Of a stretch of DNA of 64,000 nt, positions 6,001 through 51,572 are shown in pieces. The stretch spans positions 4,216,001-4,280,000 of the forward strand of contig OX387193.1 of the NCBI GenBank assembly GCA_947561395.2, read 5' to 3'. Positions within the stretch are counted from its first letter, which is position 1, and each line of letters opens with the position of its first letter. Source of the stretch: Buxus sempervirens (Eukaryota; Streptophyta; Magnoliopsida; Buxales; Buxaceae). The translations under genes and the position numbers were made by a program. The notes under the pieces are model-generated. The model did not search any database. It worked only from the letters and a program-made list of their open reading frames with translations, and was not told the origin of the DNA.

Positions 6001-7885
6001 ATTGAATTTGGTACTATGTCGGCACTTACAGGTACATGTATGAATATTAGTATATGTGTATGAACCCCCACAAGGATAGTTAGTGAATGTGGACTAATCC
6101 CTTGTGCAATGGTTTATCAGTGTTACAACATATATCACACGAAGAACCCGGTCGCCCGTCTTGTAGGCTTGTTGGTAAGTGTATTTAGTTACCGGGATGT
6201 GTTGATTTCTTTTAATATTGTTCTTCTTTTTCCACGCTATCTTCCTGATTTTGCTTGGGATTGCCTGGGAGTTTTCAGGTTCGCAAAAGGCTCTTCTTTG
6301 GCTTCTTCATTATGCTCGAGCGAGTGAGGTTTGGTATTACGATTTGGGGTAATCTTAAATATCTGTGAGTTTCTCGTGTCCCTATTCTTTGATTTCGTAT
6401 CAGGAATGTGGAAAGTTATTTTGTGAGTACATGATGGCTGATTTTCCTTTTATCAATGCTTTATAAAATTAAGAAAGATGAGCCGGATGGCTTTTGAAAT
6501 AATTAAAAACCGGCAATACTTTTAAAAAATAATTTAAACGAATGCGTGGTTTAGTATGCAATTGTTCTGCGGGTTGAATCGCACATTCATCGTAAGGCAC
6601 ACACGGAATCATCGTAGGTCCTGTAGCAAATCGCCACAGGACCTGCGCTACATCGTCGTAGGCCACGCACGACACTAGTATAGGAAGCACCATACGTTAC
6701 CATAGGGCACACAGCACATCTTCAAGGGCCCCACATCTACCTAGGACCAGACTTAATAGGATTGTTTCAGTCCACGTAAAAGTTGTAAAATTGAATCAGC
6801 ATTTGTTTTCACTATTTCGTAAAAGTATGCCGAGATTTTGATTATTTTCTCAGCCATCAATAAATCTTAGATGATTCTGCGTTGTATGATTAAAACCTTA
6901 TTTTTCCACGTTTATGGGTATTTTTCAATTACTGTTCCCAATTTTCACCTTCCCTATTAACGTACTAGTTGATTTGACCTTCAGAATTTCCTATATATGT
7001 TATTGTTTACCATACTTTTTTCTTCTAAGAGTCTTAATAATCTTGAAATATCATTTTGATGTTCGTTTTCGTCTATTTTAATATCTTCTCTCATTTCTAT
7101 CGTTGTTTGTAGTTTTTTTCTGCAGGATTTTTTACTAACAAAAGGTTCGAGGGAGGGGTGTCGTAGGTTTGGAGTTGCATTATTGCCGCTTTTCTCTTTT
7201 TTCACTATACGGTACCGATTCCCCCAAACACATCTGAGCTCATTTCCGGTGCTAAATTTTTCTGGCCTGTTCTATGGTCTTAGCTTTCAGGACACTCTTT
7301 GGTTGCCTGCTCTGCTGGACGCTGGATTTTGAAAGAGAGGACACTGCCGCGAAAGGTTTATCTCATCTCCTCCCTCCTTTTGGCTTCGGCGGGTAAGGTT
7401 TCTTGAAGGTATTTTAATTTTTACTGACTCTCTTTTTCTCTTTCAACTTAGGTTTGAAGCTCATTACAGAGTCATCGGAAGCGTGACCAATCGGAGCATA
7501 TCCTGAGAAAACCAAAAGGTTAGCAATAATTCCGGCGGGTATGATCTTTCTAACGACATTTCCTACGATATAGTCCTAATTTCGGCTTCGATACTTCTTC
7601 CAATCTTTTTGACCGAGATATGCCTTGAGAAAATGGTCGTGCGTGAAGCGTGGAGCTGAGGAGTTTCATTTCGAAGAGCTGGTGGGAGGTGAGTCAAAAT
7701 TTCGTAACTGATTAGGTTGAAGTAGGTAGGTGTTTTCTTTTTATTCTTACGCTTTTTTTGCGGTTTTGGTACAAGGAATGCTGCGAGGGCGACGGTTGTG
7801 ATGTAGGGCAGAAAGTCCTCCTCGGTTGAGGATCGCAACAATTTATTTGCAGAAGATCAATAAGGTATTGGATTTTATTTATTTG
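1..7885 (+). repeat. Head-to-tail array of a 2,123-bp repeat (four copies, last one partial)
   Basis: Copies start at 1, 2124, 4247 and 6382. Copies 1-3 differ by only a few substitutions, for example near 884 and 4492. The end of copy 3 carries a 12-bp insertion near 6292. Copy 4 has more changes and keeps a 9-bp segment near 7640 that copies 1-3 lack but the inverted array at 42-47 kb partly shares. Homology stops near 7885. The array probably continues left of the window. The unit contains a cluster of six 21-22-bp subrepeats. No reverse transcriptase, transposase, Rep or rRNA signature was found. Short open frames recur in every copy simply because the DNA is repeated. Family unknown. Confidence 0.95.
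198..332 (-). repeat. Cluster of about six 21-22-bp subrepeats inside each 2.1-kb unit
   Basis: Read on the minus strand, the block splits into six segments of 21-22 bases, each built around a core like CCTACGATGAT or CCTATGGTAAC and often preceded by GTGTG or GCGTG. The same block recurs at about 2,321-2,455, 4,444-4,578 and 6,572-6,706, and in plus orientation at about 42,290-42,425, 44,437-44,570 and 46,577-46,712. The spacing is close to two turns of B-DNA. The function is unknown; a binding array for a DNA-binding protein, as in subterminal regions of some DNA transposons, is one possibility. Confidence 0.6.
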
Positions 7886-14600: not shown

Positions 14601-17600
14601 TTAAATCCTGCCTGTGAATATTCTTTCTTCTTTAAGAATTTTGTTGAATTAATCCATCTATTTTGCTCCAAAGTTATTTTTATAACGCTCTTTTAATAAT
14701 CTTACTTTGGATCTTAGGTACTATAGTAGCAACAGTAATACCTACTACTAAAAAAAACCACAACAGAAAAATGCCCGTCTTAATTCATTAAGAATTGTAT
14801 TTTGCAATCCCAATCTATCAAAACCTATATGAAGGTTGTCAATTTTGTTATCATCTATGCACTAATGGTCTTTATTCAGAAAAAAAACATGGGTTATGAC
14901 TAATGAGGTTAGTGGCTGCAAGTTATTTCATCCCCTTAAGAAGGAATTCCATGATACTTCGAATTGTTTATAATTTATTTTAGGAAGTTAGGAATTTTGA
15001 AATATTCTGCTAGTGCTAGCCCATTGAAAACAATAGCTATCATTATTTACAGTCTTTTTTTATTTTATTGCATTTATGACATTGTTGACGCCAACTAATA
15101 AGGATAAAGCATTTTGCTCTTGCTATTCTGCTGAAAGTTGTCTCTCAGGAACCTTTCTTCTTGTGTGGCTTAAATGTGTATTGATATGGATAGTTATTCT
15201 TGTTAAACACTTTTGGAATGGCCTATACCCCAATCGTCATATTGGTTCTCTCGACTGTCCATTCAAGATTAGAATGAGGAGACTTTTGATGGCTAAGGTG
15301 TTGCTTTATCATCCGAAAGTGAAAGGAACAATATGTTAGATATTTTGACCCCACGGTTTCTGTTTGACTTACACCATTAATAAGAAAAAATAAGATTAGA
15401 TGTTAATCTTTTTTTTTTTAATTATCTTCTTTTTTTAAGATAATTTAAATTCTATATCATAAAAGGTCCTTCCAGGTTTTTATTTGATTTGTACTTCAAT
15501 TATGGCAGTTATTATGGTGTTCTAACGGCATATGGCAGCCTGCAAGATGTGAGAATATCCTACCGCTGTAGTTCAATGAGGTCTTTCTAAAGTGAGGTTT
15601 GAGATGAAATATATGATTCTGTTTTGCTTATGCAGTTTATGAAGGAGCAAAATCATGGATACACAGAAATTCTGGTTCACACTCGTGTGCTACCATTGTA
15701 TTCATTGACTCCAGGACCACCATATTTGATTGCCGCCGCAAACTGGGTACTTGGAGAGCTTGCTTCTTGCCTCCCCCACGTGAGATTATTTCCTATGCTC
15801 TTATCACTTGATAAATTTTTTCCTTACATTTTCCTTGTTGCTTATCTTACCATGCCAGCTGCTATACATCTGATCTGTCACATATTGCTCACATTATATG
15901 GCCATTTTTTAGTATGATTTATGTACGTTGGTATGTATGTTTAAATTTCCACAGAATGCAAATGCTGACAGTTTTTTTGCACTACTGTTAACCAATTCAG
16001 TGTTTCTGTTTCAGGAGATGAGTGCTGATGTATTTTCTTCACTGCTAAAGGCATTGGTGTTGCCTGATGCGGATTTATTTTCTTGTTATCCTGTACGGGC
16101 TTCTGCTGCTGGAGCTATTCATGCACTCCTTGAAGTATGGCGCTTATGGCGCTTAAATCAACCTTGTACCTTATGTGTAATTGTGGCATTTGGAGTGTTT
16201 GATTACTTACCTGGCCCTTATTCATGTGTTTTGCAGAATGATTACCTGCCACCTGAATGGTTACCCCTCTTGCAAGTGGTAGTTAGTAGGATAGACAATG
16301 AAGAAGACGATGAAGCATCCATTTTATTTCAGCTTCTAAGTATCATGATGGAGGCAGACAGTAAAAATGTTGCACATTACATCCCTTTCATTGTATCATC
16401 TTTAGTTGGTGCTGTTTTAAGGCGCATCCCTCCTAGTCTAGAACCCTGGCCTCAGGTATGGGGAGCTCTCCTTGTCACTTTTCTTGGTTGGGCTAGATTT
16501 CTTGGTGTATTTTAGATTGTAACTGCCACTTGCTTGATTTTCTCAAGGGAGTTTAAAAAGAAAAGAATAAAAAATAAATTGATCAGATGTCAACAGTTCA
16601 ATGGGTTAATGAATGTCAAAGGTGGTACTGGGAGCTGAAATAACTAAAATTTCAATTATTCCTTCTTCTTTTTTTTCTTTTTTCTAATGGCTTACAGATA
16701 CTGTATGTCTGAAATACGTTTGTTCTATCATGAATTCAGGTTTTAGTGATGAATTTAGTGTTCTCATATTAGGTCGTTGAAAGGGGTTTCATGGCATTAG
16801 CAGCAATGGCCCAAGTTTGGGAAGATTCTCTGCCAGAAGAAATTGAACAGAATGAATTGCGTAAAAAGTGGAGATCTGATCAGAAGATTCATATGGCTAG
16901 AATATTTTCATCTCTCTTGCAGCAGGCTTGGCTCATACCCATACAAGAAATGGTATGTTCACATATCCTGTGTCTTAAACCTCACTTCTTTTAGTTTTGG
17001 TAAAATTCTCAAGTGATTTCTTTTGGAAAGCTGAGAATGACATTCAGATTCTATAATCTGTGTAAGACCTTATAACTGGTGTCCTTCCTCTATTCTTTTG
17101 CAAGTCTTGTTCTTGAAATTAATGAAAACTGTTAAAATGTGTTTTAGTTTTTTCTGTCTTTAAGCCTGATAATAGGACATGTCAATTGAAGGGGGATGCA
17201 ACCTAAATTTATGGACTCCATCTTGGATGCATTTTATGTAAGAAGTTGATGCAGTTGGAGAACTGATGGTCCCATATAAAGCTACTTAAAAATAAAAAAA
17301 TAAAAACCAATCATTGATTCTAATATTAACCTAGAAGATCTATATTCATTTGGTGAAATCCTTTTGATGTTGCATCTGGATCTTGTGCATGTCTGGCAGT
17401 TGTACAACCTTTTTTTTTGGGGGTAATATTGCCTTTAAGACTTAAAGAAAAAGGCAACTTTGTTGGGAGGGGATATTCTCCCTTTTTCATCATTTACAAA
17501 GTCTTGGAATTTATTTTAGATTATTATTCTTATTTTTTTCCTGTTACATTACAAGGGTCAGGAAAGAGAGCTTCCTCATCCATTACCCCCTTCATCGTGC

Positions 17601-18011
17601 ATAAATGATGCATCAATATTGCTCCGGTCCATAATGGAATCTGTTACAGAAACCAATGAAATTATAGAGCTGAAAATATCAGAGTTATTAGTAGTTTGGG
17701 CAGATTTGGTTGCGGACTGGCATGCTTGGGAAGAGCTGGAAGATTTATCAATCTTTGACACCATTAAGGAAGTTGGCAATTTAGATAGAACATACAGGCT
17801 CATGAACTTCATTATAGGAAGGATGCATTCTCTGCCAGCTCCACCTGTGCCACAGTGTTCTATTATTGAGGGCATTGGTGCTTTTGTCAGCGAGGCCATT
17901 CTGCAATACCCATCTGCAACATGGAGGGCTTGCTCGTGTGTCCATTTACTACTGCATGTTCCAAGTTTTTCACTTGAAGTAGAAGGTGTCAGGGCACTTT
18001 TGTCATTTTGA
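11675..18011 (+). pseudogene. Importin-beta-like ARM-repeat gene, internal fragment of 13 exons (copy 1)
   Basis: Exons with good splice sites: 11675-11871, 12017-12077, 12741-12815, 13211-13288, 13659-13721, 13812-13895, 13981-14159, 15509-15548, 15636-15779, 16015-16134, 16237-16455, 16773-16952 and 17556-18011. They join in frame to about 631 codons. The protein matches the plant importin-like ARM family of Arabidopsis At3g17340, judged from remembered family motifs such as ANWVLGELASCLP, CYPVRASAAGAI, NDYLPPEWLPLLQVV and SIIEGIGAFVSEAILQYPSA. That family is assigned to nuclear transport. The N-terminal part (roughly 200 residues) has no exons upstream, where transposons lie instead. The C-terminal part stops being homologous after EGV, where 18,000 onward reads into unrelated DNA and a stop. 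All retained frames are open, so the loss of both ends may be recent. A truncated transcript is possible. Confidence 0.8.
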
Positions 18012-19558
18012 AAGACGGGTGCCAAAAAAGGGTATGTTTTGTTATTTTAAAAGATAATTTTAAAACAAGGCATTTTGGTTATTTAAAAACACAGGTAGGA
18101 AATAGAAACTGTCAAGGTGAGTTTGGCCTTTGGAGTGTGCAAAATTGGGTGTTGAAATGTATATGGCACAATAGTACAATGGGTTGACTCAAGCTGACCC
18201 CCGGATGAACTTGTTTGAACTTTGAACTAGCCTGCTCCCCTTGCTGGATTGGCACCCTAGCTGGGTCTTAAAACATTTTAGATTCCTTTTTTGGTTGTCA
18301 TCACCATGACTTCTTTTTTGGTTGTCAATATGTTTTTCTTATATTATAATTTATCAAACATGCTTTATTCATGAAAGTAGAAAGTTACTCATACAAATTG
18401 ACTATTGAAAGTTGCCATTTTTTTTTCTAGAGCAACTTTTGAAAAGCTTGTCCAAACATTTTCAAAGTTATCTCACTAATGAAGCAAAATGTAATCCACT
18501 TGCATTACAAATAAGATCATGAAAAGAATGATCTTTATTGATAAATAAATTGTAACAGAAAGAACAATATACTTGCAAAACAAAAAGACCTCCCCTCCAC
18601 CATGACACCACCAAGCCCCCTGCACACCCACCCCCAACCCCATGAAAGAGAAAAAAAAAAAAAAGAAAAGAAAAGAAAAAGAAAACACATGTACCCACAC
18701 CCACACACACCCATCTAAAAAAAGGGAGGAAATTTCTGAGTTTTCGTGGCTAATCTCTGCAAACTGACAAATAAATGAATTCTATTTAGATGGTTTCTAA
18801 CATGTTCTAGTGAGCAATTAGCAATAATATTGGCTAAAGAAAGTTTCTGACAGGAAGCTACAATGGTTTCTGGGACAGCACAAGAATAGTAAAGATCATA
18901 CTAGAATGGTTCTGAAAACTACATGAACAAGATAAAGATAGTGATTTTACACTAATGTGCATAGGCCTTATCAGGCTATATGCTCAAAAGTTAAAACTAT
19001 AAACTAATCTGTAATGGATCTTTAAAATAATTGTGGTGAATTTGGATGAATGAAATTAGGGACTCAATGTGAAAATTGTCCTAGAGATTTTGTTGCAAGA
19101 ATTGTTAGAGAATGCTCTATATCCAGCCAAGAAGCCATCTTTTCAACCACACATTAAAAAATATAGCCAAAAATGGAAAATTGGAGGTTTGTTCATGATG
19201 ATAGAGGGTAAGACAATGGTTCTACCAGTTTAGATACCATACCCACTTGTTCTGGAGTGATCATTTCCCTGCAAATATAAACATCTTCTATTCCATTTCC
19301 TAAGATCTTGTGCTCTTTTTCTCAAAGATTTTTATATTTTTAGATAATCCTAGGTACATATCTCCACCCCCCATCAAACAACAAATCAAAATAAACAGAC
19401 AAGTTCTGTCAAGATTAATTCAAGGATCAAGGGGTTACTTTTGTAGTACTTCCACTGGCAAAAACTGTTCCTTTAAATCCATAACATGTTAGCACAATTT
19501 ATTAGACGATTTAAGTGAATAATATGGGATGTATCTTGATATTTGTTAATCATCTCAG
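18012..19558. other. Junction DNA between importin fragment and myosin tail
   Basis: No exon of either gene is visible. The stretch holds a run of GA/A-rich simple sequence and CA-rich sequence at about 18,600-18,710. The importin-to-myosin fusion point must lie here. It is shared with the second copy, so the fusion predates the duplication. Confidence 0.6.
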
Positions 19559-22500
19559 GACGTGATTGCTGTATCTAATCCACGGGAACCTAATACTGAG
19601 GAAAAGCCTCAAAAATCTCTTAATGAAAAGCAGCAGGTAAGTGGCCATTAAAATACATGAAGAAGAATTGGATTCTTAACAGTGCTTTGTACATATTTGA
19701 TGATTCATTTGCGGTTTTGATGCCTAAACTTTTATAGCACATCTCCTAACTGTTAATTTAGTTCTTACTATCTGTTATTGTGGTACAGGAGAACCAGGAC
19801 TTACTGATAAAATGTATTTCACAAGACCTAGGATTCTCCGGGGGCAAACCTATTGCTACTTGTGTCATTTACAAATGCCCACTTCACTGGAGGTCATTTG
19901 AAGTTGAAAGAACCAGTGTTTTTGATCGTATCATCCAAACAATAGGCACAGCCATAGAGGTATGTCAAATTTTGTGTTTAGTATGTACAATATGTAAATT
20001 AGAGTTAGCCATCAAACACATGATGCTTGACATTCTAAGAATATAGAATAGACTTGTTAATGTTTACCCAGGTTTCTTTCTACTGAGCTGATGGAAAGAG
20101 ATGCCGAGAGTACTTCCTGTTTGAACTTTATTTGAATTCTATAATACTAATTCACTAATATTTGCAATTTCCACTGTTCTGCACGCCCAGGATAATAATG
20201 ATGTATTATCCTATTGGCTATCCAATGCATCAACATTATTATTGCTCCTCCAACGCACATTGAAAGCAAGTGGGGCAGCTAGCTTGACTCCACAAAGGAG
20301 TAGATCAACATCAGCTTCTCTATTTGGAAGGATGTCTCAAGTAGAAATCTCTCTCTCTCTCTCTCTCTCTCTCAATCTATATTGATTGGTTTCTCCAAGC
20401 TTTATGGAATCAATTTACATTTTGTTCCTTTGGCTTAAAATTTTGTAGGGCCTTAGAGCATCTCCTCAAAGTGAAGGGATCTCGTTTCTTAATGGAAGGA
20501 TGCTTGGACTAGATGACTTACGGCAATTTGAAGCAAAATATCCAGCTTTACTCTTTAAACAGCAACTGACAGCCTTCCTTGAGAAGATATATGGAATGAT
20601 AGAGACAATCTTAAGAAAGAGATATCCCCATTGCTAGGCTTGTGTATTCAGGTAGCCACCTTTTGCATCATGATGTCCCTCTTTTTTTCTCCCCCTGTGA
20701 TCTTATTCTAACCTTGATGTCCATAAGTTCCAATATTTGACATAATTATGTCATGCATGAAGAAGGATATGGAACCCGAGCGGGAACTTGAACGGTAATC
20801 CCAATTAATTCTGAGACATTAACAAACAAGCTGGCTGACACTTCATATCATGCTTGATTTCCTGAGATAAATTAACCTTGTTTCGAATAAATGAATTTGT
20901 TAAAAAAAAACCAAAATTCTATTAACTCTGTGTATGATACTGTTGAATTTAATTATGGCTGGAGTTCAATAGAACTAATCTGAAGGTGCATAAGCTATGT
21001 AGGGCTCTTGTTTATGATGGGTTGGAATGATATAAAAGACATACGTTGCCAGCCTCTTCTAGTTAGGATAAGGTAAAGTGTTGTGTTGGTGGAAGTAGCT
21101 TACTTTTCTAGTATTCTGCCTTGATCCTTTTATTAGTCTCGGGGATTGCTAACGAGCCACCTAAGAATTGATATGTATGACCATCATCTCTTTTTCATGT
21201 AGATGCATGCTATTATATGTATGATATGAGAACTCCTTTTTTGGAAAAGAAAAAATCGATCAGGATAAAAATGTTTCCATAATTCACATTAAAAATCCAT
21301 TCTTGCCGTTCTTGTTTTCTCAAAATTATAACTTTGCCTTAACTGATGAAAGGGATAACAAGAAAAATGATTAAGATATTCCAATGCATAAGAAGCAAAC
21401 ATATGAAGGACCATATGAATGTTATATACTCAGCCGCCCAAAGGAATGCCTGATTTATCTTCATAAATAATTCTGTTATATGATGCAAGTGGTTCTACAC
21501 ATGCTTCATGACCTGATAACTGAATTGAATATTCAGGTTTCTGTATTATGCAATCTGGTGTTGTATTTGCTCACTAAACTTTAACTTTTATGTGTATGCA
21601 GGCACCAAGGACCTCTCGCGCTAGTTTAGTGAAGGGGCGTTCTCAAGCAAATGCTGTTGCTCAACAAGCTTTAATTGCTCACTGGCAAAGCATCGTTAAA
21701 AGTCTAAACAGTTATTTTAAAACGATGAGAGCCAACTATGTAAGTTTTGAAGTCCCAAATACAATTGCAACAATTGTGATCCCTTCTTGTTCACAACATT
21801 CATGCATGCTTTGATTTTTCAGGTTCCCCCATTTTTGGTTCGCAAGGTTTTCACTCAGATATTCTCATTTATTAATGTTCAGCTGTTCAACAGGTAAATG
21901 TTTGATCCATGGGTACATAATGTTTAGACTAGCTAAATTTTTATTATTACTGCTGTTGCCTTTATATGACATGTTTCTTCTTTTGCGGCGGGAGTGCTGC
22001 TCATTTAGCAATGGGGAGTATGTAAAAGCAGGGTTGGCTGAGTTAGAACAGTGGTGTGTGGATTCAAATGAGGAGGTGAGGATCATCATTATTTAGCTTT
22101 TTTCCCTTTTGTTCTTCGATTGGTTTTATCTATAATCATGTTACTTTCAGTACGCAGGCTCGGCCTGGGAAGAACTGAAGCATATCAGATAGGCAGTTGG
22201 ATTCCTTGTTTGTTTCACTTACTTGGTTTTTCACACTCATTATTATTTTTGTCGACATATATAGTGGCTAACCATTTTATGTTCTGTACGCTGATGACTT
22301 AGGTCATACACCAAAAGCCTAAAAAGACCTTGAACGAAATAACAAATGATCTTTGCCCAGTGAGTTACTCTTCCCTTTTGAACATTTGAGATCCTACCAA
22401 AAATGTTTATTGTGTGATATCCTTCCATGATTGAAAATTCTCATCTTTCTTCTATTCTTGTTTCTTTCAGGTGCTCAACATACAGCAGTTGTACAGGATC

Positions 22501-22979
22501 AGTACGATGTACAGGGATGACAAATATGGCACGCATAGTGTATCTTCAGATGTGAGTTCTTCCCTAATTGATTTTAACTTTTATCTATGTGCACCACCTA
22601 CATGCCATTTTTGGTGTTTGTTACCTCACCCTGTTCCCATGTTACATTTTGCCTAATAATCACCTAAATTACCTCAATATTGACAGGTTATATCCAATAT
22701 GAGAGTTCTCATGACAGAGGACTCAAATAATGGTGTCAGCAGTTCTTTCTTATTAGACGATGACTCAAGGTAATGACCAAAGAATTATTTTGACAAAATA
22801 TTTGCTCACTTGCTCCAGTTATACCAATCCATTCATTTTTCTATGATCTATGCAATATACCATTTACTGTGGATGACATCTCGAAATCAATGCAACAAAT
22901 AGACATATCTGATATCGATACTCCACCATTGATTCGTCAAAACTCAGGATTTATGTTCTTAGCCCAAAGATCTGAGTAA
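19559..22979 (+). pseudogene. Myosin XI globular tail (DIL domain), decayed copy 1
   Basis: Twelve exons: 19559-19636, 19789-19959, 20191-20340, 20449-20651, 21602-21739, 21823-21893, 21976-22075, 22151-22207, 22303-22359, 22471-22551, 22687-22769 and 22855-22979. They encode the cargo-binding tail of plant myosin XI; motifs include LIKCISQDLGFSGGKPIA, FEVERTSVFDRIIQTIG, LNIQQLYRISTMYRDDKYGT and a C-terminus ending AQRSE. Motor, IQ and coiled-coil exons are absent upstream. Lesions: one base is missing near 20,601 (the frame should read GMIRDN), the acceptor before 21976 ends TT instead of AG, the acceptor before 22855 ends AA, and TAG at 22190-22192 replaces a Gln codon. The first three are shared with copy 2; the TAG is private. 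In functional plants this domain binds vesicle cargo for actin-based transport. Confidence 0.85.
20346..20374. repeat. CT microsatellite in myosin intron
   Basis: A short (CT)n run lies just after the donor of the third tail exon. It is also present at about 52,362-52,388 in the duplicate with a slightly different length. Confidence 0.8.
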
Positions 22980-23684
22980 TGTTCATTATCTGACTATTCC
23001 ATCAACAATCTTGCCCCTCAGGCTTGATGTGCTGCAGCCTTCAAACATGTGCATATAATCTCATTTCTCTGTCTCTTGTGTATTATATACAATTTTATTT
23101 TTTTATTTTTATTTTTTTGCTTATTTCTGGACGTATTTGTTCCCTGTCCAGATCGATTCATTTTTTTTCCTCCATGTTTGGAAATACATGGAGTATTTGT
23201 TTAAAGGCCATATAATGTCCTTATTATGATGTATAAAAAGATGCACGAGTGTCCAACATCTGGTCACACGTGCAAGCTCTTCGGGTATGTTGGTTTTTTT
23301 TTTTTTTTTCGTCTTTCAAGTTTAACATTACAGTAGTGTTATGGATGTAATATGACAAAAGCTGCATTTTTAAGGCATGATTTGTTGTTTTGAAAGTAGG
23401 AATGTATAACGCATGATGCAATATTCTCTTATTCGTTGGGAGTAGACTGTGCTTTAAGGACGATGTTTTTGGTGTAATTCCACATATGCTCTGCGCATTT
23501 GAAGGATAGGACCGGATGTGTGGATTTATGACATTTTTGTCACATCTGTTTGAATAAGCAAAAATGGTATTTGTGGCTTTGAATGTTGAGGATCCTACGA
23601 TAATCTATAATTTATATAACGCAAGGCATCCCTTTGGGAATAGCAGCAAGTAAAATGTGAGACTTTCCGAAACAACCCTTATAC
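22980..23684. other. 3' flank of myosin tail
   Basis: AT-rich DNA is shared with the duplicate (54,994-55,680), where small insertions and deletions are denser than in the exons. No gene was seen. Confidence 0.6.
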
Positions 23685-24588: not shown

Positions 24589-27500
24589 CTAGGAAAGGGA
24601 TGTGACTCGGACCGAGTGATCAGCTGATCCAGTCAGGAAAACAGGCAAGGTTGGGTGCCAATCAACTGTTGTTATGGCTGCACTATGCGGCAATGTTCTC
24701 AAGCCGCTCATATGACCTTGAACCTGAAACAAAATTTAGTTAGATGACAACTTTGTATGGAGCCCAAGTAGCGTGTGAGACCTCAACCTATGAGGATGCT
24801 CAGGATCATTGAATTTGCAGGTGTAACTCAACTGTAAGCTTCAGGCCAGCCTTGACATTGTTATAAAAACTTAAAATAGATAACTGTAAATGAAGTTCAC
24901 CTGATATATTGGTGCTCTAACTGAACTGGAAGTTACCAATAGTCTCCTCCCATTAGCATCCAATGCCATTTCGCTTCTATGGCTTGTTGCATTCTCATGA
25001 TTGCAGAACCTACATATTAGATCAAAAAGTGGCCAAAGGTTCTTTATCTCTAATTTGGATGAAAGTTAACATTATCAATATCAATTTAACTAACTCTAAT
25101 TATTTTTGTGGTGTAATTGATAAGAAAAATGAAATTTTGCTATGTGGTATGATGGGTCAAAACATGAAATGTCGATATGTACAACACGTGAGGTTTCAGG
25201 CAGTATTAGTTCAGACATAATGACGGCCACAGAAATCAAGCTACATCATTACCAGGTCCATTGTACAGGTTCATATATGGCCCAACTTATGGTTTAGGGA
25301 CACCATCGTATTTCCCCTATCAATAAACTATTCATAAACCTGATACTTAGTTGTCGCTCCTTGTAATTACATCTTTTAAGAACCTGTATCAGCACCTTTT
25401 GTTGAGAAAGGTGTATAGAGTGAAGTCTATGGATCTGTAGCCCATTGGAAGAATTGATATAAAATAAAACATCACTGATTTACTTCCTCTCGTAACAGAC
25501 TTGACATGAATTACTTGGTGAAAAGAAGTAAAGGAGTGCACGTACTGGCTGGAATCTCTGGACCAAAGAACTTGGCCTTGATTCTGTAAGCTCCATTCAA
25601 ATATCTGAAACCACATGATCAAAGTTAATTTCATATCCGGTACAATGGAAACAGTGACTACCTACAAACAAGAACTATCATCAAAAGTGAGACACGACCA
25701 GAATATTAAATGACATAATGAACCTGAATTCAAACAAAATCAGATTACTAATGTCAGAGATACTTACCTTCCCATCAGAACCTAAGCTGAATATGCTTGT
25801 TTCATCAGGTCCAAACAGAACAGAGCTTACAGCAGAATCATGAGCAGGCCATCCTGTAATTTGTAGGCTAGCAGACATGTCTTGGCAAAGTCAAGGAATG
25901 TACCCAGACACAAATTTTCACATAATAACACAGTTGTCAGTAATAGCTGAATTCCAAATGAGGTTCCTGTTATTATTAATAGGAATGATACCAAATTTAT
26001 AAATAAATGGTTGTAAAAGCCATGTACAAAGGAGCAGAAGCTATTTTAAGTATGGATACCAAACATGTGGATCATTCCATCAGTTGCAGAGGCTGCTAAA
26101 ATCTTCCCATTGTGGTTGAAGCAGACAGAAGTAATTGCTGGTGGATCTTTACCAAGAGGAAGAACTGTCTTCAGAAAGGGGAAATCAGCTAAGTGTTACG
26201 CCGGTTTCAACATAAAATCACCACCCCAGCATCAAAATGCAAAATCCCATGGAAACAAACACTTACCATTGCCTTCCATGTCTTCATATTCCAAACAGTT
26301 AATGAAGCAAATCCTATATCATCATTGTAATTTGATCCATGCCTACAAGGAAAATGAAATCTTGAGAACATCCATTTTCCTCTTTCTTTTCCCCCTTCCT
26401 GCAACCCACTCCTTCTGATAGGTCTAGTATGCATTGTAAATATAGTCAAGGATAAAATGGGGCAAATCCCCTGTCCGCAAGAGATACAAATCAGGCTGCT
26501 CAAGGACAAGAAATGCTAGCCTCCAATCATAGAATATTCCCAACTGCTACTCATTGTTAAATGCAGAAAAAATGTACATCTGCAGACACCTTAGATACAA
26601 TATACCAACAGATTAATAATCTCATAAATGTCCATGACCAAAGTATAGGGCTACATATTGTGTTTCAGGTCATATTGGCCGAATTAAACCCGTTTGGCTA
26701 ATCCATACGATGGGTGCAAATTGGGGATGTTCAACCAGAGAACTAGCCAACTGATACTATTATCTTAAACTATGGATAAAGGAGTAGACAAATAGGAAAA
26801 TACCCTCTTGAAGATGCTGCAGAGACAAAAACTGGTTCCACAGGGCTGCACTTTAGATCCAAGACACTGTGGTACAAAAGATATGTTGAGAGAAGGCCCA
26901 AAGGAAGTGTGTAGATTAAAAAGACAAAACTTCTCATGATGACCTTGGAAATGCTTCAGTTGTGTTGAGATCACAGACAACTCTCTTTGCATCCACATTC
27001 CATGCTTTAATGCCACCATCAGCTGTGCCTATAAGAAGCTATTTTCAAGAACCATGAAACTTGGATAACATCAATTCCATGTCGAGAAAATCTAATCATT
27101 CTAGAAAGGCCAAATATCATTCAAACAAAAAATCTTTTACATACCAAGCGATCAGATTTGCAATCCCAATCAAGTGACATAATTTCAGCCCCACAATAGA
27201 TGGTTGCATTTCTAGAGGTCGAGATTGATGAGTCATATGTCCATATTCTTTAAAACATGTAAATTGCAAAAGGAAGTTTGTGAATTGGAATGCAATAAAT
27301 AAAAATCATCATAGACCAATACAAAAGAAAGAAAAAAAAAGCACAAATGATGATCCCTCTGACAGTATAAGCTCAATCTTATGAAGAAACAGCTATATAC
27401 TGGACATATTCAGTGCTTGACTACCAAAAACAAACAACATTTTTCAATTGGATCCTGCCATGTACTGGAGCAGCCAAACTATAGTCTGATCAGACCACCC

Positions 27501-30500
27501 TCTCGTAGATGGTCAGCTAAATGACGACAAGTACATTAAGCTATGATTAGAATTGTCAGATCACAATGATTGCTGGGCAAGGTGTGATACCTAAAAATCT
27601 AATGAGTTGGGTTGTCTAGGTCAATGAACACGGGCACAATTACAATGAAGAACCAGTTGCTAACAAGCTAAACAACCCCAGACAGATAGTTTTTAAAAGC
27701 CTAAGCAATTAAATACTCCGGTGAGTAACAGATAGAGTCAAATGATCTTACTACCAAAAATTTTGTTAGCGTGATTTTACTACCAATAATTTTGTAAGCA
27801 ATATCCAATATTATAACTTTTCTGATCACTTTTTTTAGTAGGTGAGTATTTTCTGGGCAAATAAATAAAATTATATTATGGATTGATTGGCTGGCTTCCC
27901 AGGCTGACGCATAAGCTATTACCACCCATGCCCTTAAAAAAGAACCTAGCAACAACCTCTAACAATATTTGCTCACTTTATAGTTTGTCCAATATTTATT
28001 TTTGCACTGTTATATCTTTTGGGCATTTCCCATCCCAAGTCCAGGTAGAGGAGGTTTGCATCAGGTTCATAGCTGGAGTAGAACTTTTGTCAAATGTTTT
28101 ACATCACCCCTTTTCTGTAAGAAAACTATTTTAACAGTATATACCTGACTGTGCCATCCATGGAAGCACTTGCAATATTGTTTCCAGAAGCAGAAAAGCG
28201 GCACCGACTAATTGGACTGGTGTGACCCAAGAATGTTTCCTAAAAATCATGACCTTCAGATTCTTTGATTGGATGTAAATCATGTAATAAAGAATAAGCT
28301 AGCAAATGAAGTAAAGGCACATGAATGTTGTGGAAGCAACAGCTACATGGTTTAGAACAAGACGAGTGGCACAAATGGAAATATGCCATAAAGTGGGATA
28401 TGGAAATTAATGTCCTGTCTGGAACAAAGTTTACCTGGAAGTCTACCTTTACTTCGGGGAATTCTTCTTCTCCCTGTATTACCCCACCATTTTCTGTTAC
28501 AACAAATTGGATTGCCACAGAATCAGCCTCATGTTTGGTAATCATGTCACAAAGAAATCCACTCATTTATTCATGAACCATTTTGCTATGACATAATGGC
28601 CAGTTGATTCTTGTGAAAATTGGCATACTCATGCATTTCAATAATGAATTTAGGAGTTGTAAAGAAAATGGTGCCATTCGGGCTCAAATAATTTATAATA
28701 GGATATTTATTTCTTAGTCTTTCATTTTTTCTGCTCTAACCTCGAAGGTTTGCTATCTATTGTGCATGAAATGAAAAGAATTTCACAAATCAAAAACTGA
28801 ATTGCAACCTTGCAAAATTTGGAGGGCACCTTCATTTTCGTCATCTCTGCCCAGAAGCTTTCTTGAATAACTTGAGCTTTGTTCCGGCTCAGATACAGTC
28901 AATCCCACTGAAGACTTAGCAATGCCAGCAACATCCCAGTCTGGAACCCTGACTTGTCTTTGTGACCCGCTTGACAAAAGGTTATTTTCTTCATGAACAC
29001 CCCTACCTGGTGTCTCAGATATTATATTTGTAGAGTTTTTCTTTTGGAGCATGCTTGTATCCGGAGCTGGTGAAGCAGAACTAAGTAGAATTGTAGCATC
29101 AACATTTAATTAAAGCAACAGAGTAATATAATTACAGCAATCAGGAGAGGGATGCCAAAATAAAATATTTCTTACATTCTAGTCTGTCGCAACTGGGCCT
29201 CCTTTTCCTCTAATAAAGCCTGGAGCTGTGACAACTTAAGGTTAAGTTGCTTGATGTCTTTCTTGAGTCGCTTGATAGCATTCTTCTCAGAACCGATTTT
29301 TAATAGTGCAGGGATGCGTAAGTTGGCAGTTAAGGAAAGTTCTAGGTGTAATCGTAAAGGATGGCCAGATGGTGTTGTAGTATAACAATTGAGAGAGTTT
29401 TATTATTAAGATAAACAACTTTATCTGATGTAAACATAGTGAAGTACTTCCAAGAATGTTAACCTATTAATCACAAAATCACTACAAAATTGAAGTCCTG
29501 GACCAAAAAATAAATAAGTGAATAACTAAATATTTTGTAAGAGATAGTTTCATTATCTTAATTTTATTGAACAAAATGCCACCACCTCACCATGGAGATG
29601 TCATGGGTTGATCGCTGAAGGCATCAAATGGCAGAATAGATTCATGCTACCAATCATATGTATCTGCAATTCAATTTAGATAGATATGACAAATATATGT
29701 GCCTCTCTTCCTCTCATTTTTTCAGCATCATTTGGAATACTCGAACAGCGGATTCTTCTTCTTCCATTTTTTTTCATCATTGGACTGACTTTTATGAATG
29801 AAACCAAAAGGATGTCTCATTATGATCTGGACTGCATCCTCATCCTTAATCTTTGTTCTTATCCTTTCCTTAGGTTAGGGTCGATCTGCTGTTACTATAT
29901 GAAAATTAAATATCTAAAATATATATATAAAAAAACTATTTCATCTAAGTTCTATATTGTTATACTATTATATGTTATATAATATTCAATAGAACTTAGA
30001 ATCATTCTTTTCTTTTCTTTCTAAATTCATATTAATTTTTCAATTTAATTATGATAAATAGTTAATAGCTCATATTCTAGTGGTTTACTGAGTTCCTATG
30101 CGCAAGCACAATTTCTGTTATGTGAGCTTACTTAGCTTTGAGGTTATAGCATCACATTTGAAATGTGATGGTAACTGGTGTGATTCTGATAGCTGGCTTT
30201 GCTCCATTTGTTCAATTTTTTACATTATTGAAGTATCTCCTTGAAATCAAGGAATATTGAAAAGACTTCCATCCTGGGTCACCAATCAATCATATCACAA
30301 GAACTCCCAACTACGAACAAAGACACAAATTGGAGAAGTTAGATCCTTACAGAAGAAATCAAGAAAAGTATCTTTTAATTATATACAAACAAATCTGATA
30401 TTGATACAATTCATCTCATCCTTCTTTGTTGTACAGTATTTCAATAGATTTCAATTTGTTTATCTATCATTTAGTTCAGTTTGAAATTGAATTTAGTTTT

Positions 30501-31881
30501 ATTCTGTAAAATGAAATTTAAATAATCAAAGGACTCTTTATGTCTTGTTACCAAGGGCCTCATTAAAAATAAAAAATAAAAAACCCATCTGGGGGCTTTA
30601 TTGGGACTAACTAGTAAAATGCCTAAGGTGGAAGTGATCTTAGAAACCAATCGCATTACGAGAAAGATCTAAATATTGTATTCATCTAGGAGAAAAACAA
30701 AAATATTTAAAACTATAGGACATACCCAATAATGATCCAGCAGGGTTGCACCCAAGCCAATTCTTTTGCTGATTTTACAATTTTTTTTAAAAAAAAAAGT
30801 TAACATGCCTTATAAAAATGTATTATAATATTTTTTTAGTCCTTTTATAATAATAATACCATCAATAAATTCCTGTGAAGATTACATACAGGCCTACCAA
30901 AAGGTATATTGCTAATATTTTTCCACGACAAGATTCATTATCAAGCTGGATATTGAAACTTCTAACACTGCACGATATAACACAGCTCAAGACTCAAACA
31001 AAAGAGACAAGTTTTTTAGTAGAGATGATTTATACTTAGTCTAAAATAATCCATTTAATAGAACAAAATTCACCTCAATTAGTAAACAATTACAAATAAC
31101 TCAGTAATATTGGAAATTCTCTATATGTTGTTATAACAGGAACACTAGTAAAAGCAACACTCGGGATTTGACAAACTATATATCAAGTGCAATTTAGAAC
31201 CTTCAATAGAAATACCAGGGGAAGAATCATATAAAAGGATATGAGTACTGTTGAAGACCTCACTTAAGAAATTTCTAAGTGAAAGATGCAAGGCATCAAA
31301 CCACTCCCTTGAAAAGTAAACACGAAACTGAGGATCTGAACTTGGATTCTTCAAATATGGAATGGCTGCATGAAATCTTCATTAATATAAGTTGAAAAGG
31401 AAAAGAATTCAAGGGAAAACAACAACACAAAATGAAAAGAAAGAAGGGGGGGAGAGAGAGAGAGAGAGAGAAAACAAAAGCGAAACCTACCAAACCATGG
31501 AGTCCAATCTTGTCCTCTTTGCAACAAATCATTGCCATTCATTTCAAAGAACTCTACTACTTTGTCTATTCTTCCTGACCTTATAGCATGGACAATATAG
31601 TAACGTAGAACTGAGACCTCTAATTTGGACAAGGTAGCAGTAAGTACTGTATCAGTGGACAATGAGAAGCACTGCTTGAAAAAATTAAGCAAACCGACTA
31701 ATTTTTCTGCCTGAAATTTTGGCACATATACCAAGAATATTAAGTTCAAGATCTTATCCACTTGAAATCCTTTACCAACATCTGAGGATAATTCTGTCTC
31801 AAAAGCTTGTAGAGTATTTGTAAACCCCCTAAATACAAGAAACTCCCTCACAAGCTCCTCTGCATACTGCATGTTTTCCAT
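24589..31881 (-). CDS. WDR91 homologue (LisH/WD40 protein), complete
   Basis: Coding exons (minus strand): 31881-31491, 31365-31243, 29317-29176, 29080-28830, 28469-28435, 28239-28145, 27247-27145, 27038-26944, 26866-26804, 26342-26267, 26168-26060, 25880-25768, 25604-25546, 25009-24901 and 24723-24589. They sum to 1,899 nt: 632 codons plus TAG, with every junction in phase. The start MENMQYAEELVREFLVFRGF is a LisH-like opening. A coiled coil follows (KRLKKDIKQLNLKLSQLQ), then WD40 repeats (GHTSPISRCRFSASGNNIAS, WNMKTWKAM, GWPAHDSAVSSVLFGPDETS, HPTLPVFLTGSADHSVRV). Animal WDR91 is a Rab7-linked regulator of endosomal PI3P and maturation; a similar endosomal role in plants is inferred. Intron 2 is U12-type. 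The intron 4 acceptor is read as GGGAG because this keeps the frame. No lesion was seen. Confidence 0.9.
29318..31242 (-). other. U12-type AT-AC intron of the WDR91 homologue
   Basis: On the minus strand the intron begins ATATCCTTTT (31242 downward), matching the U12 AT-AC donor consensus. It ends in AC (29319-29318). TTTCCTTAACT at 29338-29328 matches the U12 branch site, with the branch A 12 nt from the 3' splice site. Joining 31243 to 29317 restores Arg in STRIPALLK, the sequence expected for the family. No GT-AG pair at these points does so. The intron is 1,925 bp and holds AT-rich sequence only. Confidence 0.92.
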
Positions 31882-42083: not shown

Positions 42084-45000
42084 ATTGAAAAATAGCCTTA
42101 AACGTGGAAAAATTAAGTTTCAATCATACAATGCAAAATATTCTAAGATATATTGATGGCCGCAAAAATAATTAAAATTTTGACATACTTTTAGGAAATA
42201 GCTAAAACAAATTATGATTTAATTTTACAACTTTTACGTAAACTCAAACAATCCTATTAAGTTTATATCCTAAATAGAAGTGGGGCCCTTAAAGATGTGC
42301 TTTTGTGCCCTATGATAACGTGTGGTGTTTCCTATACAAGTGTTGTGCGTAGCCTATAACGATGTAGTGTGTGTCCTATGGTGATTTTCTATAAGACCTA
42401 TGATGATTCCATGTGTGCCCTACGATGAATATGCAATTCAACCCACAGAAAAATTGCATAATAAACCATGCATTCATTTAAATTATTTTTTAAAAGTATT
42501 GCCAGTTTTTAATTATTTCAAAAGCCATCAATTCATCTTTATTTATTTTATAAAGTGTTGATAAACAAAAAATTTGCAATTATATACTCACACAATAAGT
42601 TTCCACATTCCTAATACGAAATTAAAGAATAAGAACACGAGAAACTCACAAATATTTAAAATTACCCCAAATCATAATATCAAACCTCACTCACTCGAGC
42701 ATAATGAAGAAACCAAATAAGAGCCTTTTGCGTTTTAACAAACCTAAAAACTCCAAGCTCCCAAGCAAAATCAGGATGATAGCATGGAAAAAGAAGAACA
42801 ATATTCAAATAAATCAAACATCCTGGTAACTAATTAAAAAACTAAATCCACTTATCAAGACGAGCGACTGGGTTCTTCGTGTGATATATGTTGTAACACT
42901 GATAAACCATTGCACAAGATATTAGTCCACATTCACTAACTATCATTGTGGAGGTTCATACACATATACTAATATTCATATATGTACCTGTAAGTGCTGA
43001 TATAGTACCAAATTCAATTGCTGTGATTCAATAGCTAATAGTATCTGCGTAAACCACGTAAGGAGCTTATCATAAATGTTAAAATTTATCATAGAACCGG
43101 AATACCCAAAAATAAATTCTATGTTGATTGATCATACCTCGTCCTGAAATAATGCCCATTAATATAATCCGATTACGGGGTTTATAAATAAAAAGCATTA
43201 GAGAAAAAACACATCAAATTACTAGATCATGAGTCAGTTGTTAAAATCCATAAAAAACATCCGACCAATACGTGAAATAAAAAAAATTCGATACCTTATT
43301 TATCTTCTGCAAAGAAATTGCAGTGATCCTCAACCGAAGAAGGCTTTCTGCCCTTCATCACAACCGTTGCTCTCGCAGCATTTCTTGTAACAAAAATGCA
43401 AAAAAAAAAACCTCAGAATAAAAATAAAACACCTACCTACTTCAACGTAATCAATTACAAAATTTTGACTTGCCTCTTACCAGCTCTTTGAAATGAAACT
43501 CCTCAGCTCTACCCTTTATGTTCGAAGATTTTCACAAGACATATCTCGGTCAAAAAGATTGGAAGAAGCATCAAAGCCTAAATTAGGATTATAGCTTAGG
43601 AAATATTAATAGAAAGATCATATCCGCTAGATTAATTGCTAACCTTTTGGTTTTCTAAGGATATGCTTTGATTGGTCACGCTTCCGATGACTGTGTAATG
43701 AGCTTCAAACCTAAGTTGAAAGAGAAAAAGAGAATCAATAAAAATGAAAATACCTTACAGAAACCTTACCAACCAAAAGCAAAAGGAGGGAGGAGATGAG
43801 ATAAACCTTTCGAGGCAATGTTCTCTTTTTCAAAATCCAACGTATAGCATAAAAGACAACCAAAGAGTATCCTGAAAGCTAAGACCATAGAACAAGCTAG
43901 AAAAATTTAGCACTGGAAATGAATTCAGATGTGTTTTGGGGAATCGGTTCGTATAAAGAAAAAAGAGAAAAGCGGCAATAATGCAACTCCAAACCTACGA
44001 GACTATTCCCTCGACCCTTTGTTAGTTAAAATTCTACAAAAAAACTATAAACAACAATAGAAATGAGAAAAGATATTAATATAGACGAAAACAAACATCA
44101 AAAAAATATTTCAAGATTATTAAGATTCTTAGAAGAAATAAGTACAGTAAAAAATAAAAAATAAAAAATAAATTCTAAAGGTCAAATCAATTAGTACGCT
44201 AATAGGGAGGATGAAAATTGGAAACATTAATTGAAAAATAGCTTTAAACATGGAAAAATTAGGTTTCAATCATACAATGCAAAATCATCTAAGTTTTATT
44301 GATAGCTGCAAAAATAATTAAAATGTTGACATACTTTTAGAAAATAGTTAAAACAAATAATGATTTAATTTTACAACTTATACGTGGACTCAAACAATCC
44401 TATTAAGTCTATGTCCTAAGTAGATATGGGGCCATTGAAGATGTGCTGTGTGTCCTATGATAACATATGGTGTTTCTAATACTAGGGTCGTGCATAGCCT
44501 ATAACGATGTTATGCATGTCCTATGGCGATTTGCTACAAGACCTATTATGATTCCGTGTGTGCCCTACGATGAATGTGCAATTCAACCCACATAAAATTT
44601 GCATAATAAACCACACATTCATTTAAATTATTTTTTAAAAGTATTACCAGTTTTTAATTATTTCGAAAGCCATCAACTCATCTTTATTTATTTATAAAGT
44701 GTTGATAAACGAAAATTTTGTCATTATATACTCATACAATAAGTTTCCACATTCCTAATACGAAATTAAAGAATAGGAACACGAGAAACTTACAAATATT
44801 TAAAATCACCCCAAATCATAATATCAAACCTCACTCACTCGAGCATAAAGAAGAAACCAAATAAAAGCCTTTTGCGTTTTAACAAACCTAAAAACTCCAA
44901 GGCAATCCCAAACAAAATCAGGATGATAGTATGGAAAAAGAAGAACAATATTCAAATAAATCAAACATCCCGGTAACTAATTAAAAAACTAAATCCACTT

Positions 45001-47261
45001 ACCAAGACGGGCGACCGGGTTCTTCGTGTGATATATGTTGGAAAATTGATAAACCATTGCACAAGACATTAGTCCACATTCACAAACCATCCTTGTGGAG
45101 GTTCATACACATATACTAATATTCATATATGTACCTGTAAGTGCCGATATAATACCAAATTCAATTGCTGTGATTTAATAGCTAATAGTACATGTGTAAA
45201 CCACGTAAGGAGTTTATCATAAATGTTAAAATTTATCATAGAATCGAAATACCAAAAAATTAAATCTATGTTGATTGATCATACATCGTCCTGAAATAAT
45301 GCTCATTAATATAATTCGATTACGGGGTATATAAATAAAAAGCATTAGTGAAAAAACACATCAAATTAATAGATCATGAGTTAGTTGTGAAAATCTATGA
45401 AAAACATCCAACCAATACGTGAAATAAAAAAAATTCAATACCTTATTGATCTTCTGCAAATAAATTGTTGTGATCCTCAACCGAAGAGGACTTTCTGCCC
45501 TTCATCACAACCGTCGCTCTGGTAGCATTTCTTGTAACAAAAATGCAAAAAAGCGTCAGAATAAAAAAAAAACACATACCTACTTCAACGTAATTAATTA
45601 CGAAATTTTGACTTAGCTCTCACTAGCTCTTCGAAATGAAACTCCTCAGCTCTACGCTTCATGTTCCACCATTTTCTCAAGACATATCTCGGTCAAAAAG
45701 ATTGGAAGAAGTATCGAAGCCTAAATTAGGATTATAGCTTAGGAAATATTATTAAAAAGATCATATCTACCGGATTAATTGCTAACCTTTTGGTTTTCTA
45801 AGGATATATTCTGATTGGTTATGCTTCCGATGACTTTGTAATGAGCTTCAAACCTAAGTTGAAAGAGAAAAAGAGAATCAGTAAAAATGAAAATACCTTA
45901 CAGAAACCTTACCAACCGAAGGCAAAAGGAGGGAGGAGATGAGATAAACCTTTCAAGACAGTGTTCTCTCTTTCAAAATCCAGCGTATAGCAGAAAAGAC
46001 AACCAAAGAGTATCCTAAAAGCTAAGACCATAGAACAAGCCAGAAAAATTTAGCACCGGAAATGAGTTCAGATGTGTTTGGAGGAATCAGTACCATATAA
46101 AGAAAAAAGAGAAAAGCGACAATAATGCAACTCCAAACCTACGAGACTGTTCCCTCAAACCCTTTGTTAGTTAAAATTCTACAAAAAACTATAAACAACA
46201 ATAGAAATGAGAAAAGATATTAAAATAGATGAAAACAAACATCAAAAAAATATTTCAAGGTTATTAAGATTCTCAGAATAAAAAAGTACAGTAAAAAATA
46301 AAAAAATCAGAAATTCTAAAAGTCAAATCAATTAGTACTTTAATTGGGAAGATGAAAATTGGAAACACTAGTTGAAAAATAGCTTTAAACGTGAAAAAAT
46401 TAGGTTTCAATCATACAATGCAAAATCATATAAGATTTATTGATGGCTGCAAAAATAATTTAAATTTTGACATACTTTTAGAAAATAGTTAAAGCAAATG
46501 ATCATTTAATTTTACAACTTTTACGTGGACTCAGAAAATCCTATTAAGTCTATGCCCTAAATAGATGTGGGGCTCTTGAAGATATGCTGTGTGCTCTATG
46601 ATAACGTATGGTGTTTCCTATACAAGTGTCGTGCGTGGCCTATAGTGATGTAGTGAATGTTCTATGGCGATTTTCTATAAGACATACGATGATTCTACGT
46701 ATGCCCTACGATGAATGTGCAATTCAACGCACAGAAAAATTGCATAATAAACCACGCATTCATTTAAATTATTTTTTAAAAGTATTGCCAGTTTTAATTA
46801 TTTCAAAAGCCATCAACTCATCTTTATTTATTTTATAAAGCGTTGATAAACGAAAAATTTGTCATTATATACTCACACAATAAGTTTCCACATTCCTAAT
46901 ACGAAATTAAAAAATAGGAACACGAGAAACTCACAAATATTTAAAATTACCCCAAATCATAATATCAAACCTCACACACTCGAGCATATTGAAGAAACCA
47001 AATAGGAGAATTTTGGGTTTTAGCAAACCAAAAAACTCAAAGGGAATCCCAAGCAAAATCAGGATGATAGCATGGAAAAAGAAGAACAATATTCAAATAA
47101 ATCAAACATCCCAGTAACTAATTAAAAAACTAAATCCACTTACCAAGACAGGCGACCAGGTTCTTCGTGTGATATATCAACGAACACTGATAAACCGTTG
47201 CACAAGGTATTAGTCCACATTCACTAACTATCCTTGTGGAGGTTCATACACATATACTAAC
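42084..47261 (-). repeat. Diverged inverted array of the 2.1-kb repeat (about 2.4 copies)
   Basis: This is the reverse-complement counterpart of the left array. Copies span about 42,084-44,228, 44,229-46,370 and 46,371-47,261 (partial). Units are about 2.14 kb and roughly 80-85% similar to the left array by eye; they differ from each other far more than the left copies do. Each retains the 22-bp subrepeat block. It forms the other arm of an inverted layout enclosing 7.9-42.1 kb. Confidence 0.9.
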
Positions 47262-48420: not shown

Positions 48421-48787
48421 ATTACCCCTTCTCCACTTTCTTGAAACATTCTCTCTCTGTTCAAGAACCTGAGGTTCTGCCCGTCTGCGCCTGAAGTGGT
48501 CTCGGTTACTATGATCGGTCTTACGATCGCATGAACCCCAAAAAAAAAGTTTAATAGGTTTCGTGATCATAATTTCTGGATCGGTCTCTGGAATTGATCA
48601 GATGTCAACAGTTCAATGGGTTAATGAATGTCAAAGGTGGTACTGGGAGCTGAAATAGCTAAAATTTCAATTATTCCTTCTTCTTTTTTTTCTTTTTTCT
48701 AATGGCTTACAGATACTGTATGTCTGAAATACGTTTCTTCTATCATGAATTCAGGTTTTAGTGATGAATTTAGTGTTCTCATATTAG

Positions 48788-50025
48788 GTCGTTGAAAGGG
48801 GTTTCATGGCATTAGCAGCAATGGCCCAAGTTTGGGAAGATTCTCTGCCAGAAGAAATTGAACAGAATGAATTGCGTAAAAAGTGGAGATCTGATCAGAA
48901 GATTCATATGGCTAGAATATTTTCATCTCTCTTGCAGCAGGCTTGGCTCATACCCATACAAGAAATGGTATGTTCACATATCCTGTGTCTTAAACCTCAC
49001 TTCTTTTAGTTTTGGTAAAATTCTCCAGTGATTTCTTTTGGAAAGCTGAGAATGACATTCAGATTCTATAATCTGTGTAAGACCTTATAACTGGTGTCCT
49101 TCCTCTATTCTTTTGCAAGTCTTGTTCTTGAAATTAATGAAAACTGTTAAAATGTGTTTTAGTTTTTTCTGTCTTTAAGCCTGATAATAGGACATGTCAA
49201 TTGAAGGGGGATGCAACCTAAATTTATCGACTCCATCTTGGATGCATTTTATGTAAGAAGTTGATGCAGTTGGAGAACTGATGGTCCCATATAAAGCTAC
49301 TTAAAAATAAAAAAATAAAATCAATCATCGATTCTAATATTAACCTAGAAGATCTATATTCATTTGGTGAAATCCTTTTGATGTTGCATCTGGATCTTGT
49401 GCATGTCTGGCAGTTGTACAACCTTTTTTTGGGGGGGTAATATTGCCTTTAAGACTTAAAGAAAAAGGCAACTTTGTTGGGAGGGGATATTCTCCCTTTT
49501 TCATCATTTACAAAGTCTTGGAATTTATTTTAGATTATTATTCTTATTTTTTTCCTGTTACATTACAAGGGTCAGGAAAGAGAGCTTCCTCATCCATTAC
49601 CCCCTTCATCGTGCATAAATGATGCATCAATATTGCTCCGGTCCATAATGGAATCTGTTACAGAAACCAATGAAATTATAGAGCTGAAAATATTAGAGTT
49701 ATTAGTAGTTTGGGCAGATTTGGTTGCGGACTGGCATGCTTGGGAAGAGCTGGAAGATTTATCAATCTTTGACACCATTAAGGAAGTTGTCAATTTAGAT
49801 AGAACATACAGGCTCATGAACTTCATTATAGGAAGGATGCATTCTCTGCCAGCTCCACCTGTGCCACAGTGTTCTATTATTGAGGGCATTGGTGCTTTTG
49901 TCAGCGAGGCCATTCTGCAATACCCATCTGCAACATGGAGGGCTTGCTCGTGTGTCCATTTACTACTGCATGTTCCAAGTTTTTCACTTGAAGCAGAAGG
50001 TGTCAGGGCACTTTTGTCATTTTGA
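48788..50025 (+). pseudogene. Importin-like ARM gene, last two exons (copy 2)
   Basis: Exons 48788-48967 and 49570-50025 repeat the two terminal exons of the fragment at 11,675-18,011, including the same non-homologous ending after EGV and the same stop. Upstream exons are absent because the duplication starts in the intron before 48788. Differences from copy 1 are few (for example VVNL against VGNL, and LEAEGV against LEVEGV). It cannot make an importin and is best read as a passenger. Confidence 0.8.
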
Positions 50026-51572
50026 AAGATGGGTGCCAAAAAAGGGTATGTTTTGTTATTTTAAAAGATAATTTTAAAACAAGGCATTTTGGTTATTTAA
50101 AAACACAGGTAGGAAATAGAAACTGTCAAGGTGTGTTTGGCCTTTGGAGTGTGCAAAATTGGGTGTTGAAATGTATATGGCACAATAGTACAATGGGTTG
50201 ACTCAAGCTGACCCCCGGATGAACTTGTTTGAATTTTGAACTAGCCTGCTCCCCTTGCTGGATTGGCACCCTAGCTGGGCCTTAAAACATTTTAGATTCC
50301 TTTTTTGGTTGTCATCACCATGAATTCTTTTTTGGTTGTCAATATGTATTTTTTATATTATAATTTATCAAACATGCTTTATTCATGAAAGTAGAAAGTT
50401 ACTCATACAAATTGACTATTGAAAGTTGCCATTTTTTTTTCTAGAGCAACTTTTGAAAAGCTTGTCCAAACATTTTCAAAGTTATCTCACTAATGAAGCA
50501 AAATGTAATCCACTTGCGTTACCAATAAGATCATGAAAAGAATGATCTTTATTGATAAATAAATTGTAACAGAAAGAACAATATACTTGCAAAACAAAAA
50601 GACCTCCCCTCCACCATGACACCACCAAGCCCCTGCACACCCACCCCCAACCCCATGAAAGAGAAAAAAAAGAAAAAAGAAAAGAAAAGAAAAAGAAAAC
50701 ACATGTACCCACACCCACACACACCCATCTAAAAAAAGGGAGGAAATTTCTGAATTTTCGTGGCTAATCTCTGCAAACTGACAAATAAATGAATTCTATT
50801 TAGATGGTTTCTAACATGTTCTAGTGAGCAATTAGCAATAATATTGGCTAAAGAAAGTTTCTGACAGGAAGCTACAATGGTTTCTGGGACAGCACAAGAA
50901 TAGTAAAGATCATACTAGAATGGTTCTGAAAACTACATGAACAAGATAAAGATAGTGATTTTACACTAATGTGCATAGGCCTTATCAGGCTATATGCTCA
51001 AAAGTTAAAACTATAAACTATTCTGTAATGGATCTCTAAAATAATTGTGGTGAATTTGGATGAATGAAATTAGGGACTCAATGTGAAAATTGTCCTAGAG
51101 ATTTTGTTGCAAGAATTGTTAGAGAATGCTCTATATCCAGCCAAGAAGCCATCTTTTCAACCACACATTAAAAAATATAGCCAAAAATGGAAAATTGGAG
51201 GTTTGTTCATGATGATAGAGGGTAAGACAATGGTTCTACCAGTTTAGATACCAAACCCACTTGTTCTGGAGTGATCATTTCCCTGCAAATGTAAACATCT
51301 TCTATTCCATTTCCTAAGATCTTGTGCTCTTTTTCTCAGAGATTTTTATATTTTTAGATAATCCTAGGTACATATCTCCACCCCCCATCAAACAACAAAT
51401 CAAAATAAACAGACAAGTTCTGTCAAGATTAATTCAAGGATCAAGGGGTTACTTATGTCGTACTTCCACTGGCAAAAACTGTTCCTTTAAATCCATAACA
51501 TGTTAGCACAATTTATTAGACGATTTAAGTGAATAATATGGGATGTATCTTGATATTTGTTAATCATCTCAG

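Follow-up and report, generated by a model that had tools for sequence, protein, structure and literature searches.

Gene content and copies of the locus

The window, by which we mean the whole 64-kb stretch of Buxus sempervirens DNA that was analysed (C19:4216001-4280000 in an assembly of 676.5 Mb and 247 contigs), contains on its minus strand a WDR91-like gene, the coding part of which (24589..31881) was modelled by hand as 15 exons with one open frame of 640 aa; the model covers the coding exons only, without the 5′ UTR. An earlier note on this DNA had called the gene a WDR91 homologue, and this designation is well supported by sequence comparison. The closest solved structure is human WDR91, which shares the WD40 propeller and matches residues 315-639 of the plant protein (E = 4.5e-47); three distinct WDR91 sequences rank first, with E-values from 4.5e-47 to 5.7e-46, and WDR5 follows a long way behind at about 1e-19. 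The C-terminal propeller is also recognized in Pfam as WD40 repeats (PF00400), while the N-terminus yields PF23138, CTLH_Armc9 (2.5e-20, residues 55-169). An N-terminal LisH/CTLH-like region is a feature of WDR91, and a CTLH-like N-terminus is thus detected in the plant protein as well. Residues 1-219 were in addition compared with viral sequences and with a set of genome contigs from which other plants were absent, yielding 14 and 68 pattern stretches, respectively, none of which was confirmed. RBV, an Arabidopsis WD40 protein, was considered and set aside, the main text of its paper containing 0 occurrences of “WDR”. In animals, WDR91 is reported to work with WDR81 in endosome maturation (PMC5025723), and by analogy the plant homologue may act likewise.

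Elsewhere in the window, a direct duplication of 7.1 kb with 98.7% identity (16577-23684 and 48592-55680) holds part of a gene, and the one exon-like frame tested in it gave no Pfam match. Positions 1-7884 and 42084-47260 hold a tandem array of repeats spaced about 2.1 kb apart (98.7-99.4% identical), together with an inverted relative at about 86%. A retrotransposon fragment at 40234-38077 (minus strand), which we take to be Copia-like, consists of broken frames, the first of them with gag_pre-integrs and Pol_BBD domains, and 62813-63178 (plus strand) carries an N-terminal exon (Myosin_N) of what is probably a myosin heavy chain gene.

The WDR91-like gene is present in four near-identical full copies on C19, spread over about 240 kb (C19:4140047-4377711) and comprising the window copy (B) and three others (L017, L018 and L019). 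Copy A, at 4140047, lies on the plus strand, and copies C and D on the minus strand, one copy thus being inverted. In copies A, B and D the frame is open, and 14/14 introns have GT-AG or AT-AC termini. In copy C (L018) a few bases are missing where intron 6 meets exon 7, and projection of the exons there gives a stop and GT-AT termini. The four copies represent either real duplication or, in part, an assembly artefact. Two shorter relics were found as well. One, on C14, corresponds to a portion of exon 1 (90% identity), and the other, on C11, to exon 2 with its flanks (92%).

An AT-AC intron with U12-type signals

The earlier note had claimed a perfect U12-type AT-AC intron at 29318-31242, and all of the signals that it named are indeed present. 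Intron 2 (29318..31242, minus strand; 1925 nt, phase 1) separates coding exon 2 (31243..31365), which the three other C19 copies share at 100% identity, from coding exon 3 (29176..29317). It begins with the 5′ splice site ATATCCTTTT (31233..31242), carries the branch site TTCCTTAAC (29329..29337) within the motif TTTCCTTAACT, which places the branch A (29330) 12 nt from the intron end, and finishes as TTTCCTTAACTGCCAACTTAC, the terminal AC occupying 29318..29319. The published U12 consensus has the donor ATATCCTT and the branch TCCTTAAC located 10-15 nt from the 3′ end (PMC2426677). Among the 14 coding introns only intron 2 shows 10/10 identity at the donor and 9/9 at the branch, and a comparable donor and branch together occur in none of the other 13, with intron 11 as a partial exception. 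Joining of exons 2 and 3 gives FLSEVFNSTRIPALLKIGSEKN in phase 1 and keeps the frame, so that STRIPALLK, which the note had described as a family sequence restored by the splice, appears at residues 170-178 across the join. This peptide lies beyond the reach of outside matches, since the Pfam domain ends at residue 169 and the solved WDR91 structures cover only residues 315-639.

The strict combination of a perfect donor, a perfect branch and AC at U12 spacing is found once on both strands of the window, and in none of 60 first-order Markov simulations. Under a looser motif definition there is one pair in the window versus 0.2 expected, which is unconvincing if taken alone. Dispersed repeats account for part of the intron length, at least 12 further places in the genome matching it at 71-86% identity. 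All four copies carry letter-identical donor, branch and acceptor sequences in introns 2 and 11 and keep the same frame across the exon 2/3 join, one copy being damaged elsewhere, while intron 2 measures 1925 (B), 1923 (A) and 1753 nt (both C and D), and intron 11 measures 179 (B and A) and 229 nt (C and D). Sequence identity of intron 2 between copies is 98.8-99.9%, which suggests recent duplication and makes the copies weak as independent evidence.

We computed duplex energies between the introns and segments of one match each of the genome's own U11, U12 and U6atac. The U11-donor duplex of intron 2 (-8.3 kcal/mol, 9 pairs) is the lowest of the 14 introns, followed by intron 4 at -7.3. Its U12-branch duplex reaches -9.4 with one bulged base, intron 1 being lower at -11.1. 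With U6atac the donor yields -6.1, and 4/13 other introns lie below this value, so that this pairing is not distinctive for intron 2. Phase 1, the commonest phase among minor introns as reported in PMC10639083, is shared by introns 2 and 11, but likewise by introns 1 and 4 (2/12 of the others), and therefore contributes little.

Parts of the minor spliceosome can be recognized in the genome. Matches above the Rfam cut-offs number three for U11, one for U12 and 11 for U6atac, some of which may be pseudogenes, and a homologue of CCDC84/CENATAC is present; CENATAC has been described as helping A-type minor introns in human cells (PMC8280824). Neither U4atac nor PDCD7 gave any match in the genome, in searches that were equally silent in every control genome, so that this silence is no sign of absence. 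A genome-wide scan for the U12-donor pattern returned 2894 forward and 2806 reverse occurrences, whereas the reversed pattern occurred 1928 and 1949 times, and is unreadable as a count of U12 introns.

A probable second U12-type intron

Intron 11 (25881..26059, minus strand; 179 nt, phase 1), a GT-AG intron, is probably also of the U12 type, judging by its donor GTATCCATAC and its branch TTCCTTGAC (25898-25890), the branch A of which lies 10 nt from the AG end. Compared with the consensus GTATCCTTT, the donor is identical from +1 to +6 (GTATCC) and off at +7, amounting to 7/10 overall, for which reason we stop short of the assurance given to intron 2, while the branch fits TTCCTTRAC. These features were absent from the earlier note.

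The other reading, that of an ordinary U2 intron which acquired a U12-like branch by chance, draws on the donor, which leaves the U12 consensus beyond position 6, and on a weak U11 duplex (-3.6). We consider it unlikely, however, given the rarity of the two signals in a background of 123.8 kb (247.6 kb on both strands), in which a GTATCC start was found at 33/12087 GT dinucleotides and TTCCTTRAC at 8-18 nt from the end at 2/14207 AG dinucleotides. The joint chance over 13 GT-AG introns is about 5e-6; we arrived at this estimate only once the pattern had been noticed, and its background includes the window's own sites, that of intron 11 among them. In addition, the base at +5 is C. U2 donors favour G at this position.

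Splicing of intron 2 and its alternatives

The order of snRNA steps in the minor spliceosome is well established, and at intron 2 it would run as follows. U11 would pair with the 5′ splice site and U12 with TTTCCTTA/CT, bulging out the branch adenosine at 29330; U6atac would then displace U11 from the donor, after which the minor spliceosome would connect 31243 with 29317. As the donor starts with A, help from a CENATAC-type factor is conceivable. The same machinery would most likely excise intron 11, in that case as a U12 intron of the GT-AG subtype. From the signals, the frame and the snRNA genes we infer that intron 2 is spliced in this manner, as a U12-dependent AT-AC intron removed by the minor spliceosome, with a probability of about 0.95, and that expression of the gene would accordingly hinge on minor splicing.

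If the major spliceosome instead used a nearby GT-AG pair, the AT-AC signals would be relics. The search covered donors between 75 nt before and 120 nt after the AT-AC borders, and acceptors between 200 nt before and 100 nt after them, and this range does contain 19 GT-AG pairs that are in frame and free of stops. However, the best of the alternative donors agree with the U2 consensus at no more than 6/9 positions, and all 19 pairs add or remove residues around NSTRIPALLK, none giving a flush join. The U12 signals are perfect and unchanged in 4/4 copies, and we regard such major splicing as very improbable. The crowding of four full copies into the region, one with a stop in its projected exons and an altered exon border, could also suggest a decaying duplicate in which intron 2 is no longer used. 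The window copy, however, is open throughout, and 3/4 copies combine open frames with regular intron termini, making this quite unlikely for the gene studied here.

Under the preferred reading, in which the minor spliceosome removes intron 2, production of a WDR91-type endosomal protein would need this machinery, probably at two introns. With intron 2 left in the mRNA, the reading frame runs into a stop after 203 residues (...SNPECCFY); with intron 11 left in, it does so after 506 (...MFGIHT). The gene should therefore respond strongly to defects in minor splicing. It would then serve as a useful extra marker, without introducing a new principle.

Place among known U12 introns

Comparison with known U12 introns shows intron 2 to be a textbook example of the AT-AC class, sound but ordinary, as plants are known to have minor-type introns. 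The rarity of the AT-AC form among them, asserted in the earlier note, agrees with published surveys: four plants have it at 13-26% of their U12 introns (PMC7367187), and PMC5932401 cites another survey, of Arabidopsis, that puts it at 4.8%. Intron 4 of CBP20 is an AT-AC U12 intron reported throughout the land plants studied, with lengths of 76-2733 nt (PMC5932401), and we used it as a positive control. An Arabidopsis CBP20 query (86% match) located it in the B. sempervirens genome, where it measures 635 nt, ends in AC and has the donor ATATCCTTTT and the branch TTCCTTGAC, the branch A lying 10 nt from the intron end and the join ...RTDYDPGRGGYGKLVQ... being in frame. It thus shares with the WDR91-like intron 2 the AT-AC termini and the U12 donor and branch, albeit in a different gene, and its splicing has been tested in protoplasts, whereas the WDR91-like intron is known here from sequence alone. 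Given this documented conserved plant AT-AC intron, the present case is less exceptional than the note suggests. Among CBP20 minigenes in protoplasts, the longer plant U12 introns were spliced more efficiently (PMC5932401), so that the length of intron 2 by itself is no argument against its use.

Two U12 introns in one gene are not unusual either. They are described, for example, in most mammalian SCN and CACN1 channel genes (PMC2831892), which resemble the WDR91-like gene in having two minor introns per gene, although here one is AT-AC and the other probably GT-AG, and the host is a plant endosomal WD40 gene. Minor introns were found to cluster non-randomly in genes in 21/21 U12-bearing genomes tested (PMC7367187), and genes containing them usually carry one or two (PMC6865273); for plants, ample documentation exists of both U12 subtypes and of genes that contain two such introns. 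Titles and the beginnings of abstracts, which is as far as our literature search extended, yielded no mention of the WDR91 intron, and it may already have been catalogued for other plants in U12 databases or supplements.

The relic on C11 (L021, C11:22201327-22201693), which contains an in-frame stop, differs from the genes at the donor of intron 2. Its donor GTATCCTTTT reads CTC|GTATCCTTTTTT, while all four genes read CTC|ATATCCTTTT (ATATCC), and both versions are good U12 donors. The difference could have arisen by mutation of the dead copy or by a GT-to-AT substitution in the line of the gene, perhaps through loss of a CG; the relic, which stops short of the acceptor, is compatible with either direction. 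A trace of U12 subtype switching, running either way, is possible. A broader reading would combine an endosomal gene doubly dependent on minor splicing, through one AT-AC and one GT-AG U12 intron, with a genome that holds both donor states, AT in the four copies and GT in the older relic. We put it forward tentatively and, taken as a whole, find it rather doubtful; if true, it would amount to a within-genome record of subtype switching, for which CpG decay (CTCG to CTCA) is a possible route. Subtype switches have been described before, 36 U12DB clusters being reported to contain both subtypes (PMC2831892).
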